Assembly: GCF_026239675.1 (NCBI RefSeq)
Contig: NZ_JAPIVQ010000003.1
Span: 62,001-126,000, forward strand
DNA length: 64,000 nucleotides
Reading direction: 5' to 3'
DNA from: Pedobacter sp. PLR
GTDB taxonomy: Bacteria > Bacteroidota > Bacteroidia > Sphingobacteriales > Sphingobacteriaceae
Numbering within the stretch: the stretch's first letter is position 1; every line of letters begins with the position of its first letter. The notes beneath the pieces were generated by a model. The model searched no databases and was not told the DNA's origin. It worked only from the letters and a program-made list of their open reading frames with translations. Shown one piece after another: positions 57,701 to 61,136 of the stretch. The position numbers were made by a program, and so were the translations under genes.

Positions 57701-57731
57701 AAAAAAGGGGGGATTATTTCCCCCTTTTTTC
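57701..57731. terminator. Bidirectional terminator overlapping the end of the 119-aa gene
   Basis: AAAAAAGGGGGG pairs with CCCCCCTTTTTT around ATTATTT-type loop bases. It serves the plus-strand hydrolase and, on the other strand, includes the last codons and stop of the gene at 57714-58073. Confidence 0.85.
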
Positions 57732-58073
57732 CATGATCTGCTTGTGCCAGTTTTTCATTACTTTCCGGCCGGCGGCCTCCGCTTTTGTCGCATTTTGATG
57801 GCCACCTTCCAGGTGCTGGAATACCACTTCCGCCATTTGATTCATAAAAGGTTCGTGCTGCGGCATGTCCACTTCATTATCCCTGCCATATTTACCAAGA
57901 TAATACAGAAAAAATAGCGTTGCCCAGCGCTCATCACCGTCTGGCTGACTGTAATAAAAAGGGAAAGAAACCTGGTTAACAAATTCCTGAAGCAGGGCTT
58001 GTGGCTCTACTTTGAAGAGGTCGCACAGTACACTGAAGTCTTCCGTAGGCTTAATGGTTACATTCATTTTCAT
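57714..58073 (-). CDS. Single-copy unknown-domain protein, last gene of HEPN operon
   Basis: The 119 residues consist of one copy of a domain of about 85 residues also found twice in the protein encoded just upstream: EDFSVLCDLFKVEPQALLQE, then FVNQVSFPF, an aromatic segment with ATLFFLYYLG, and EPFMNQMAEVVF. The tail is basic. I do not recognise the family. It starts 2 bp after the two-copy gene, so they share a transcript. Its last codons lie in the terminator hairpin. Confidence 0.7.
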   Translation of the reverse strand: MKMNVTIKPTEDFSVLCDLFKVEPQALLQEFVNQVSFPFYYSQPDGDERWATLFFLYYLGKYGRDNEVDMPQHEPFMNQMAEVVFQHLEGGHQNATKAEAAGRKVMKNWHKQIMEKRGK

Positions 58074-58075
58074 AG

Positions 58076-58855
58076 TTATGTATTTGGTTGTTTTTTGAGG
58101 TCATTTTGCTTTTTATGGGCATCAAGGAGCTGATAATAATATTGGTCATAGAGCTCCTCATATTTTTCAACCCGTTTTTCGTAGCTTCTGATGATAAACA
58201 ACCAGAGGTGTAACTCCTGTATCCGGTCTATAAATTGCACCTGTAAATATCGATGGGCACTAATGCTGGGCTTCGCCTTATTTATATTTAATGACTTGTA
58301 AAAAAAGCCCATCGCCTGGTTTTCTACCACCCTTTTCAGTCCCAGGTTAGCATGGGTTTTAGGTAAGGATATTTGAGACATGAAGTGCTCCAGATATTCT
58401 TCCGGTGTGCAGTTGTGGAGTTCACATAAAAGACAAAAATCCATTTTAAGCTGTAATGTGATGCCTTCGTCCAGTATTAAGGTGGTGTCTCTGGTTATGG
58501 TCCGATCCATCATCTGATAGATCTTCTTCACAATAGGCACACACATTTTTCTTTTTTTTGTATGAGTTTGTGCGGGCGTGGTGGCAATCCTGATGACTTC
58601 CCTGATGTATTTTAAAATCGGCTCCCGCTGCTTTAAAAAGGAAGTACTGGTCTCTCTGCGTATGGAAATGGAATAGTTTAACAGCGTATTGGTCGCAGAG
58701 CGGTAGAGGTCGTCAGATTTCTGGCTCAATGAATCATAAAATGAAACATGATCTATGAAAAGTTGCAGGATTTCCGGAATGTGCAAATCATAGGTTGCAC
58801 AGGCAATCTTAAATTCCAGAGGAATGGGGACGAGGGTTGGTGTTTTTATCTTCAT
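58076..58855 (-). CDS. Two-copy unknown-domain protein of the HEPN operon
   Basis: The 259 residues hold two copies of the domain seen in the next gene. The first copy begins EFKIACATYDLHIPEILQLF (about residue 14) and reaches QREPILKYIREV. The second begins DFCLLCELHNCTPEEYLEHF (about 138) and reaches YLQVQFIDRIQEL. Each shows a pattern F-x(2-3)-C, then Pro-Glu, then a Phe and a QVS/QIS/HVS triplet. The function is unknown; a role in protein contacts is plausible. The ATG overlaps the HEPN stop by 4 bp. Confidence 0.72.
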   Translation of the reverse strand: MKIKTPTLVPIPLEFKIACATYDLHIPEILQLFIDHVSFYDSLSQKSDDLYRSATNTLLNYSISIRRETSTSFLKQREPILKYIREVIRIATTPAQTHTKKRKMCVPIVKKIYQMMDRTITRDTTLILDEGITLQLKMDFCLLCELHNCTPEEYLEHFMSQISLPKTHANLGLKRVVENQAMGFFYKSLNINKAKPSISAHRYLQVQFIDRIQELHLWLFIIRSYEKRVEKYEELYDQYYYQLLDAHKKQNDLKKQPNT

Positions 58856-60111
58856 GGTTTGTGTGGTTCTAGATCATCGAGTTTTTTTATTCCGGCAATT
58901 CCGGCCTCATAAAGGAAGTCTTTGCAAAGCTGATGGATAGCCAGCATTTCCTCGCATTTGATGTTCAGGCTGGAATCGTGTTTGTAGGGATGCTCACTTT
59001 TAAAGAGTAATAGATAGAGTGCATGGTTTTTGGGCTCGTCTCGCTGGACCTGTAAATAATGATCTGGCCAATGGCTGCGACATAAGTCGAGCAGGTCAGG
59101 TAGCAAGAGGTTTTCGGCTTCGTATCCGCCGGAGTATAAACCGATGATCGCCATACATACCTGTGAAATACATTGCGCAAAAAGTGTCGTACTGATCTCT
59201 TTTTGCTTTGCCTGAAGCAGACTTTCTCCTGCTGTTATTAGAGCTTTTGCCCGGTTCATCCGGGTATAGTAATTCGCTTTGGCGAAGGTAAAGCCCTCTA
59301 CCGGAATGGTCATGATTTTCGTGGTAGTATAGGTATTCGAGATTCCAATCAGGTCTTCCGCAAGGGTGATGCTGCTTTCTATTAAGTACTGGATGCGGTT
59401 GAAGAAGAGGAGGAGCCGGGTCTCATCAATTGAAAAGTTGGTTTCATACCTTACCGAAGAGTAGGAGAGGTTTAATAGTTGGAGCAGGTCATTTTCCTCC
59501 TCCTGCTGGTCATCAAAAGCGATGGGCATATGAGGAATGGCATTGCTCAGCCAGTTCTGATGCATGTGGAGCAGGTGACTGCGGCGCTCTTTACCCAGTA
59601 AGCTCCTGCCAATGGTTCTATAAGTGATTTCTGCGGCTTGATGGAGCATAAATGTGCTGAGCCCACGCTCCCCACTCTGATGGTAAAAACTCGCCCCGCG
59701 TATAAAAGAATTGACTTTTTCTATGCCTGATCTGAACCGGACAATCGCCTTTGCCCTCATTTCTGTTTTTAAATCCGATAAAGGCAAAAGAATGGACGAA
59801 TGAAGGTCACTGTAAATGAGGTTGGAAGGGCTACAGACAGATAAAAGGAAGAGGTTGCCATTGTTGATTTCCCAAAGAAGTTCTTCGGTCCGGTAGATCG
59901 TAAATAGCAACCCTTTATGTCCTTCCAGCTGGCGGTACCCTTTGATCATGTTTTCTTCTATTTCGATTTCTGTTTCGTTATTCACAATAACGGTCGCATA
60001 ATGAGTTTCTCTGCCGTTTATGCTGACCGTATATAAATAAATCTTATCCGTGTTGATGTTGTTGATCATACTTTGAACAGCGGAAATTCTTTGACCCAGC
60101 GCTAACATCAC
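58852..60111 (-). CDS. HEPN domain protein with unassigned N- and C-terminal parts
   Basis: In the 419 residues a HEPN-type helical domain lies at about 125-270: RGLSTFMLHQAAEITYRTIG, then KERRSHLLHMHQ, and SSVRYETNFS near R221. The N-terminal 110 residues form an alpha/beta unit that may be a degenerate nucleotidyltransferase-like domain. The C-terminal 150 residues (AKANYYTRMNRAKALITAGE) are helical and could be a second HEPN-like unit. It overlaps both neighbours by 4 bp. HEPN proteins often are RNases or bind nucleotidyltransferases; here the role is inferred only. Confidence 0.72.
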   Translation of the reverse strand: MMLALGQRISAVQSMINNINTDKIYLYTVSINGRETHYATVIVNNETEIEIEENMIKGYRQLEGHKGLLFTIYRTEELLWEINNGNLFLLSVCSPSNLIYSDLHSSILLPLSDLKTEMRAKAIVRFRSGIEKVNSFIRGASFYHQSGERGLSTFMLHQAAEITYRTIGRSLLGKERRSHLLHMHQNWLSNAIPHMPIAFDDQQEEENDLLQLLNLSYSSVRYETNFSIDETRLLLFFNRIQYLIESSITLAEDLIGISNTYTTTKIMTIPVEGFTFAKANYYTRMNRAKALITAGESLLQAKQKEISTTLFAQCISQVCMAIIGLYSGGYEAENLLLPDLLDLCRSHWPDHYLQVQRDEPKNHALYLLLFKSEHPYKHDSSLNIKCEEMLAIHQLCKDFLYEAGIAGIKKLDDLEPHKP

Positions 60112-60770
60112 TCAAATACTTTTTCATACATGCAACCATTGTCTTTGGACTTGATCCTTTTCAGCTTCGGGAAGTCCTTCTTCTTTGTTAAGGTCTTTAA
60201 TGCGGTTTGCAGGTGTCTTGGCGCTACATTATCTGATAAGGTATTGCGGCATTTCTGATAGATCTGGAGAGGGGATTGCGGTGTGTAAAACATCCGGCCT
60301 TCAAAAAGTACGTTGAGCATGGCAGTAACCTCTGCTTCATTTTCCAGTTCTGCGGTTTTAAGGTTGCTATTGGCCATATTGGTTTCTATCAGGTGGAAGA
60401 TTTGAGTCTCCGTGCCATCTTCTTCATACCGGATCATTTTGAGCGATGTTTTGATGGGATCACTGTCTTTGATAAGCTGGTAGCTACCCATCGTTTTCAG
60501 GTGTTCGAAGTTTGAAATTACACCGCTCAGCGATTTTTCTTCCACCGCATGGCGAAAACAGTGCATGTCTTCAAAAGAAAAACCAATGCTGATCAACTCT
60601 TCTTTTTGTTTCATATAATCATTGGTGTATCCCATCAGAAAAGAAACTTCTGAAGTGCTGTAGCCTTTGGCTATTCTTTTCAGCATAAAACTATATAGCA
60701 TGCCTACATTTACTGAGGAAAGGATGGCCTTAGAAACGATGGGGATCGGGGTGTTGTGGTTCTTTTTCAT
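60108..60770 (-). CDS. First gene of the HEPN operon, unknown 220-aa protein
   Basis: A soluble protein starting MKKNHNTPIPIVSKAILSSV. Residues 30-60 (RIAKGYSTSEVSFLMGYTND) look like a helix-turn-helix, and the C-terminal third is basic with a winged-helix-like LQTALKTLTKKKDFPKLKRIK. It could bind DNA. No family recognised. It shares a 4-bp ATGA overlap with the HEPN gene and is divergent from the XRE regulator. Confidence 0.65.
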   Translation of the reverse strand: MKKNHNTPIPIVSKAILSSVNVGMLYSFMLKRIAKGYSTSEVSFLMGYTNDYMKQKEELISIGFSFEDMHCFRHAVEEKSLSGVISNFEHLKTMGSYQLIKDSDPIKTSLKMIRYEEDGTETQIFHLIETNMANSNLKTAELENEAEVTAMLNVLFEGRMFYTPQSPLQIYQKCRNTLSDNVAPRHLQTALKTLTKKKDFPKLKRIKSKDNGCMYEKVFE

Positions 60771-60797
60771 ACAAAAGACTTGTTAACTATATAATAT

Positions 60798-60862
60798 GTA
60801 TAGATTATCAATACAAACGTATGTATAATCCGGCTAATTAACCAATTAGTGTATAGATTATC
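60798..60862. promoter_or_regulatory. Repeated operator-like sites between the divergent genes
   Basis: GTATAGATTATC occurs exactly at 60798-60809 and 60851-60862. A related GTATGTATAATC lies between them at 60819-60830, and an inverted ATCTATAC lies at about 60892. They flank both promoters of the divergent pair, so they are good candidates for binding sites of the XRE-type protein encoded next to them. Confidence 0.6.
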
Positions 60863-60914
60863 TTTCTCATTTATATATTTATCTATACTTATTTTAAGAA
60901 AAACCATATTTAAC

Positions 60915-61136
60915 ATGACTAAATTAGGATATTATTTAGCTAAAAGATCTGTGAATAAGTCGCAGGTAGCTAAACGAACGGGTTTAACAAAAGCAAGGAT
61001 GAATGAGCTTACCCTGACGGAAACTTCAAAACTCAGGGCAGAGGAATTGTATCTTATTGCACTGGCAATCAATGTGAATCCCTGCGAAATGCTGGGCGAT
61101 ATTTGTGAAGGTTTAACACTGCTATCGGAAAGTTAA
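60915..61136 (+). CDS. XRE-type helix-turn-helix regulator, 73 aa
   Basis: From the ATG at 60915 the protein begins MTKLGYYLAKRSVNKSQVAK. The helix-turn-helix is SQVAKRTGLTKARMNEL, followed by a helix with RAEELYLIALAINVNPCEML, the normal Cro/C1 layout. An upstream in-frame start would add 22 residues, including hydrophobic ones, and lacks support. The gene is divergent from the HEPN operon across repeated sites, so it probably controls that operon and itself. The sensor gene starts 16 bp downstream. Confidence 0.85.
   Translation: MTKLGYYLAKRSVNKSQVAKRTGLTKARMNELTLTETSKLRAEELYLIALAINVNPCEMLGDICEGLTLLSES

Follow-up and report, generated by a model that had tools for sequence, protein, structure and literature searches.

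A HEPN-containing operon of Pedobacter sp. PLR and its relatives: a possible eroding copy of an undescribed gene module

HEPN proteins are known in several settings. In the MNT-HEPN system (MntA-HepT), the HEPN gene forms an operon with the gene of a nucleotidyltransferase-like partner, an arrangement to which the locus described here bears some likeness. According to part of a survey (PMC3710099), HEPN domains fused to nucleotidyltransferases usually lack catalytic residues and are most likely inactive; the same part states that some HEPN families missing the motif histidine may use another one upstream. HEPN proteins, sometimes fused to MNT domains, are also reported beside BREX and other defence systems in a portion of PMC12839542. 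We analysed a stretch of 64,000 nucleotides, hereafter called the window, from Pedobacter sp. PLR (contig NZ_JAPIVQ010000003.1, positions 62,001 to 126,000), in which a HEPN gene is part of a four-gene operon divergent from a small XRE-type regulator gene. Our tentative interpretation is that this operon is a vertically inherited chromosomal copy of an undescribed conflict-type HEPN/c0 module that is eroding into a regulatory remnant.

The four genes lie on the minus strand. Gene 1 (c1, 60108-60770) codes for a 220-residue protein with a predicted N-terminal helix-turn-helix (HTH), a beta region and a C-terminal winged-helix-like part. Gene 2 (HEPN, 58852-60111, GTG start) codes for 419 residues read as a degenerate nucleotidyltransferase-like region, a first HEPN domain with R221-Y222 and a degenerate second one. 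The product of gene 3 (c0, 58076-58855; 259 residues) carries in tandem two units of a mostly helical, undescribed domain, and that of gene 4 (c0s, 57714-58073; 119 residues) a single unit. Genes 1 and 2 overlap by 4 bp, as do genes 2 and 3, and 2 bp separate genes 3 and 4; the single tightly coupled unit proposed in the first-pass annotation is confirmed by these coordinates. None of the four proteins reaches a curated cut-off in Pfam or NCBIfam (the closest is HEPN, E 0.016). No PADLOC-DB 2.0.0 family matches any of the five window proteins, regulator included, at E <= 1; the annotation knew of no named system with this gene set. Judging by titles and the beginnings of abstracts, the papers retrieved by literature searches (HEPN in Pedobacter or Sphingobacteria, SNF2 with HEPN) did not deal with it either.

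Ten other Pedobacter genomes carry c1 and c0 at the same chromosomal site, the closest named relatives being Pedobacter gandavensis, P. polysacchareus and Pedobacter sp. N36a (loci and genomes are designated below by L and G numbers). The hydrolase and receiver genes are present in 10/10; L121 is the only one without the PAS-kinase gene (9/10), and L130 the only one without the SusC/SusD-type genes (9/10), which were named by eye. None of these ten syntenic relatives has a HEPN gene at the site, and the window copy is alone among the 11. L130 has a shortened c0 (197 residues), and its c0s was not found by profile scans. The c0s of L125 was missed by open reading frame (ORF) picking but is present in the profile search (G153), and the XRE gene of L124, similarly missed, is visible in its DNA. 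At L126 to L129, the gap between c0s and the hydrolase gene contains an ECF-sigma-like gene (199-206 residues) and a gene for a small cysteine-containing protein (89-94 residues), both named by eye.

In three of the relatives (G088, G103 and G120), the intergenic sequence from c1 to c0 can be aligned to a 3'-terminal segment (47-61 nt) of HEPN in the window, with scores reached by 0/2000 shuffles each, the shuffles preserving base composition only. When the last 20 nt were removed, the relics were equalled by 0, 0 and 1 of 2000 shuffles, respectively. G064 has a 38-nt match beside the start codon, which as a whole was reached by 0/2000 shuffles but was not significant without the last 20 nt (310/2000). 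No relic was found in L126 and L130, whose gaps are just 16 and 11 nt, and none was seen by eye in L129; the comparison covered the syntenic loci other than L125, L127 and L128. A gain of HEPN in the window lineage is disfavoured, because the relic in G088, G103 and G120 reaches past the gene 3 leader and because the c1-HEPN-c0 order is common to non-syntenic loci. As the tree support for grouping the window with G064 is only 74, the number of separate HEPN losses is uncertain.

The remaining genes have been maintained. Between HEPN-less species, the ratio of non-synonymous to synonymous substitutions (dN/dS, NG86) is 0.06-0.28 for c1, c0 and c0s, which are under purifying selection in the species tested; it is 0.01-0.05 for the XRE gene in three pairs. 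In the genes of the operon and in those of XRE and the hydrolase, the synonymous divergence (dS) of the window from G064 amounts to about 0.8-1.2. Since HEPN has nevertheless kept an uninterrupted frame of 419 codons in the window, the protein is probably still used or selected, assuming that HEPN was present in the common ancestor with G064. A plain toxin-antitoxin module, one of the two types to which the annotation likened the unit, fits poorly with these data, because HEPN is missing from the site in all ten relatives found, three of them with a clear relic, while the other genes stay selected in the species tested. The annotation had set against its own proposal a constant housekeeping locus of the family, and what we found comes close to it, the locus being fixed in the chromosomes of one clade of Pedobacter.

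The gene association recurs outside this site, as the annotation had suggested looking for in the Sphingobacteriaceae. Same-genus profile searches (145 genomes) detected the 259-residue family in 31 genomes, the 220-residue family in 23 and the 119-residue family in 31. The two-unit c0 profile found matches in 23/251 genomes and 8/25 genera of a family sample, and in its own genome only in a class sample (295 genomes). The single-unit profile matched 4/345 genomes of a phylum sample, namely its own and three weakly (E 3.7e-4 to 2.4e-3), one of the latter matches sitting in a frame with stops. The best weak match, from another family of the same class (L256), shows XRE, c0s, HEPN and c26-like genes in a row. 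We tabulated 62 c0 loci, chosen from c0 profile matches plus L188 from a HEPN match and hence not random, with the near-identical copies (L131/L132 and L138/L188) counted separately. The table leaves out the HEPN-only loci L185-L187, L189 and L190, L241 (no c0 match in the scan), tandem c0-c0 pairs except L191, duplicate loci, L255 and L256. HEPN genes are found within 6.5 kb at 41/62 c0 loci (one of them, L135, interrupted) and c1 within 2.5 kb at 32/62. The window order c1-HEPN-c0-c0s is also that of L131 and L132 (P. nanyangensis and P. xixiisoli) and of L217 in another genus.

Some relatives have an additional component, as a SNF2 helicase or its N-terminal half is encoded at eight loci. 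In L223, L224 and L228, a helicase gene (1161-1165 residues) is located between HEPN and c1 in the same direction, and in L221 it is downstream, beyond an opposite-strand gene. The 433-441-residue proteins of L193, L217, L233 and L234 match the helicase profile but are N-terminal halves only; those of L193 and L217 align along the N-terminal ~440 residues, ahead of the motor. We did not retain the name 'SWIM' for this N-terminus: a CxC...CxH pattern was seen by eye, and no SWIM family of Pfam matched three helicases at E <= 0.1. The window genome itself has a second HEPN operon (L255, G000:C6, 2558-8117), with a divergent XRE-type gene and a gene for a HEPN protein of 457 residues that overlaps that of a SNF2 protein of 1138 residues. 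A c26 domain fused to this HEPN protein appeared plausible by eye and was discarded, the c26 profile giving no match at E <= 10.

The c0 unit comprises ~120 residues. The profile of the 119-residue family matches both halves of the 259-residue proteins, and the profiles of the three units match one another with hhalign probabilities of 86-98%, in agreement with the annotation's view that genes 3 and 4 share a domain. No family of Pfam, NCBIfam or PADLOC was found for it. The AlphaFold2 model of gene 3 (mean predicted local distance difference test score, pLDDT, 88.5) is helical except for two short strands. Foldseek searches with the whole two-unit model gave no PDB or BFVD match at E <= 0.001 (best PDB E 0.24), and the best VIA-align match was to a helical membrane receptor (Z 5.8, root mean square deviation 4.5 over 64 residues). 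Sequence searches of solved structures with c0 yielded chance-level matches. We considered a likeness of c0 to ribbon-helix-helix proteins, but do not claim it.

Exactly three c0 units are encoded at 50/62 loci, either as a two-unit and a one-unit protein or as three single-unit genes, and this count holds in 36/41 of the HEPN-bearing c0 loci. Exceptions include L218-L220, with two units, and L191, with four; the only other locus scored with four units, L236, owes this to a split c0 frame. The three-gene loci do not correspond one-to-one to units A, B and C: their first gene best fits A (7/7) and their third C (7/7), but the second fits C best rather than B in 7/7, so that 14/21 assignments are as expected, two of the first-gene scores being weak (near 13-14 bits). 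Tandem pairs of two-unit c0 genes followed by a small XRE-like gene on the opposite strand recur in several Pedobacter (L191 and L052-L057-like loci); no HEPN was seen at L191.

The assignment of gene 2 to the HEPN superfamily, as proposed in the annotation, is supported at the family level. The window protein alone matches PF05168 at E 0.016 (residues 134-230; 15.8 bits, under the Pfam cut-off of 22). However, 9/9 members of the family alignment match it at E <= 0.1 (best 4.2e-15), and the family profile matches the solved structure 4nqf (E 1.4e-13) where the alignment covers the C-terminal HEPN. As read from the alignment, the longer proteins of L131, L132 and L138 (554-577 residues) carry two copies of the nucleotidyltransferase-like and HEPN pair. 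In the window protein, the second of the nucleotidyltransferase-like regions is missing, and the second site is without RY. R221 and Y222 are shared by all 10 sequences of an alignment, but no histidine follows R221 at the spacing of a standard HEPN RNase in the window protein, and we therefore rejected such an RNase as the main interpretation. The nucleotidyltransferase motif G[SG]...[DE]x[DE] has no match in it either. Given the absence of both motifs and the statements in the cited part of PMC3710099, catalysis by the window protein appears unlikely, which weakens the annotation's proposal of a HEPN RNase toxin. The picture is less clear-cut among relatives, with near-motifs in several: R-x3-H occurs in L136, L137 and L194, and in L190 an R-x6-H coincides in part with the second RY; other R...H matches fall outside the aligned site. 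Matches to the nucleotidyltransferase pattern in L133, L185, L186 and L188 represent candidate active sites, and the histidine of an upstream FMLHQ motif recurs in HEPN relatives. HEPN genes are interrupted in L135 and L186 (P. antarcticus and G137), the adjacent integrase gene of L135 also being in pieces. L138 and L188, from two Pedobacter species, are very similar three-gene modules of c0s and double-HEPN type with size-matched neighbours on one side.

The DNA-binding role that the annotation suggested for gene 1 is backed by matches of the right type, all of them weak. They are an HTH match to 3vk0 (E 0.033) in a search of solved structures, HTH_3 in 1/19 family members (best E 0.0025) and GMT-wHTH in 2/19 (best E 0.022). 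The AlphaFold2 model of c1 is of low confidence (mean pLDDT 62.7; about 68-78 in the C-terminal third).

The divergent regulator gene (60915-61136, plus strand; 73 residues from its ATG) is real, its product matching PF13443 (HTH_26) at E 4.4e-8, above the curated cut-off, as a Cro/C1-type HTH regulator. Its likely start is ATG 60915 rather than the listed GTG 60849, because the conserved frame of its relatives begins there. Genes of the same XRE family are divergent from HEPN-first operons in L218-L221 and L226. The repeated sites that the annotation noted between regulator and operon are two exact 13-bp copies of TGTATAGATTATC (60797-60809 and 60850-60862). Their 12-base core has just two exact copies in the 5.8-Mb genome, both at these repeats; at one mismatch, it occurs 19 times genome-wide versus 16 for a reversed control pattern. 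The first copy is part of a candidate palindromic operator, TGTATAGATTATCAATACA (60797-60815), self-complementary at 16/19 positions. In three genera, the XRE intergenic region is characterised by a TGTATAG-N5-CTATACA-like palindrome. With at most one mismatch, it is present at the locus in 6/11 syntenic genomes and in 5/5 genomes of two other genera, the latter picked because the same XRE family adjoins their operon. In 16 genomes, 6/6 exact sites and 11/18 sites with at most one mismatch are located at the XRE-operon locus. In L219 and L220, the palindrome runs into the opening codons of HEPN in its longest frame.

The Bacteroidota -7 promoter element has the consensus TAnnTTTG. TACGTTTG (60814-60821, minus strand) fits it, adjoins and overlaps the palindrome on the operon side and may belong to the operon promoter, a matching upstream (-33) element not being established. 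The HTH_26 match and the conserved palindrome support the annotation's divergent regulator, together with an operator-like site, and the XRE protein may repress the operon through this candidate site. At the other end of the operon, a hairpin with A/T tracts (57701-57730) takes in the final codons of gene 4, close to where the convergent hydrolase gene ends; by inspection, it might be a bidirectional terminator.

Unlike the window site, some of the other loci show signs of mobility. An integrase gene or fragment is found within 7 kb at 17/51 non-syntenic versus 0/11 syntenic loci; all 17 are from Pedobacter, and 15 of them have at least one integrase frame of 345 residues or more. Relaxase-like genes are present at L136, L137, L193, L194, L232, L233 and L236, with a weak match at L249. 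The near-identical operons of P. nanyangensis and P. xixiisoli sit in differing surroundings. At the 15 loci of other genera (L216-L230), a profile built from Pedobacter only detected no integrase.

We also scanned 27 hand-picked large neighbours at 18 loci for defence genes. They include DrmMI/type IIG-like (E 2.2e-230) and DrmD/DpdE-like helicase proteins at L140, a type II methyltransferase and restriction endonuclease at L182 (the P. xixiisoli locus), an LmuB-like protein at L132, an OLD/GajA-like protein (E 3.7e-48) at L131 and a PDC-M62A/B pair at L133. Neighbours at L134, L218, L242 and L246 have helicase/ATPase-type matches, and the remaining sampled loci no match. The location in defence islands that the annotation proposed to look for is partly borne out, with strong defence matches at 4/18 loci and helicase/ATPase-type matches or none at the others. 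This neighbourhood of the mobile relatives is suggestive and not a statistic.

How might these observations fit together? We lean, with slightly less than even confidence, towards the module outlined at the outset, made of an XRE autorepressor, c1 as an HTH/winged-helix protein, a set of three c0 units and a HEPN protein fused to a pseudo-nucleotidyltransferase, joined by an SNF2 helicase in some relatives. An XRE dimer would occupy the palindrome at the operon promoter, keeping expression low. Upon its displacement, c1 and the c0 units would form a nucleic-acid-sensing or scaffolding complex controlling HEPN, which would use a non-canonical site to bind, or act on, RNA or a nucleotide. Copies on mobile elements would probably protect their host or the carrier element. 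The window copy is probably becoming a regulatory remnant made of XRE, c1, c0 and c0s, because its HEPN protein has only the first of the two nucleotidyltransferase-like regions and of the two RY motifs seen in its longer relatives. A bolder version, which we regard as rather doubtful, is that the c0 units, as paralogous subunits, build a new nucleic-acid-sensing complex and, together with c1, pseudo-nucleotidyltransferase/HEPN and SNF2, constitute an undescribed Bacteroidota immune system against mobile genetic elements, the window locus being a partly disarmed copy, no longer the full system and not yet a domesticated regulator.

Several observations weigh against the eroding conflict module. 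The HEPN relic could be an old leader into which HEPN once read. Palindrome sites with at most one mismatch are not in excess overall (18 versus 17 for the reversed control), so that the signal lies in their position and not in their count, and 5/11 syntenic genomes have no such site at the locus. In the window protein, the aligned site reads RYETNFSI from R221, without Rx4-6H. The defence link comes from a small hand-picked sample, of which only two of the last 10 neighbours matched anything at 1e-10, in both cases ATPase/helicase-type families. For c0, six pattern matches in IMG/VR contigs were not confirmed and PLSDB plasmids gave no match, and HEPN had no match in phage records. Furthermore, each of c0, c1 and HEPN is also found where one or both of its partners are missing, HEPN lacking c0 at L185-L187, L189 and L190.

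The same data can be read as a domesticated regulatory locus without a defence role, in which XRE, c1 and c0 control genes of the host, with HEPN as a vestige or optional accessory, a view that we consider unlikely but serious. The absence of HEPN at 10/11 syntenic loci, the low dN/dS values of its partners and of the XRE gene and the fixed position beside the hydrolase and receiver genes all speak for it. However, the window HEPN frame has probably remained under selection, some mobile relatives adjoin defence genes, and the exact operator core is confined to this locus in the genome, so that no wide XRE regulon is visible.

A classical toxin-antitoxin or abortive-infection unit, in which HEPN cleaves RNA and c0 or c1 neutralises it, is less probable still. 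It would account for the HEPN assignment by sequence, the invariant R221-Y222, the near-motifs of some relatives and the decay of HEPN with persistence of its partners, as with toxins; the recurrent FMLHQ histidine could also provide the alternative active site that the cited part of PMC3710099 suggests for HEPN proteins without the motif histidine. This explanation is at odds with the missing Rx4-6H at R221, with the likely inactivity of nucleotidyltransferase-fused HEPN proteins stated in the same part of that source, with HEPN loci devoid of c0 (L185-L187) or of c1 (L133, L134, L136-L138 and L140) and with the selection acting on partner genes where HEPN is missing. Least probable, in our opinion, is a module that the chromosome captured from integrative elements, which it would serve in their maintenance or in the control of their excision. 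The integrase genes, the seven clear relaxase-type matches and the near-identical operons in differing surroundings would agree with it, but no integrase was detected by the Pedobacter-only profile at the 15 loci of other genera, and none was seen at the window locus or in its ten syntenic relatives.

Regardless of its function, c0 is a domain family for which we found no counterpart in Pfam, NCBIfam or PADLOC and which recurs as a three-unit set tied to HEPN and sometimes to an SNF2 helicase. The site in Pedobacter provides a natural series, from a reduced effector gene to effector relics to none, which makes the role of partner genes after effector loss testable.

Compared with the described systems, the C-terminal half of the SNF2 helicase of L223 (about 600-1160 of 1165 residues) matches the DpdE and ZorD models, and SNF2 helicases are part of DISARM (DrmD), Zorya (ZorD) and Dpd (DpdE); the match spans the helicase half, and the window operon has no helicase. 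Neither this nor PADLOC places the window operon in DISARM, Zorya or Dpd, the other core genes of these systems not having been searched systematically in the relatives. The auxiliary HEPN proteins associated with BREX are presented in the available portion of PMC12839542 without mention of c0- or c1-like partners. The window operon differs from MntA-HepT in that its nucleotidyltransferase part is fused and motif-less, its HEPN has no Rx4-6H at the aligned site and c1, c0 and XRE genes are added. Another resemblance is to nucleotidyltransferase-fused HEPN proteins (PF05168, HEPN-T class), which have the same type of fusion and the same loss of Rx4-6H according to the cited part of PMC3710099, with 4nqf as the solved relative by sequence. 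The proteins described here differ from this class by the double nucleotidyltransferase-like and HEPN layout of several members and by their recurring association with c0 units.

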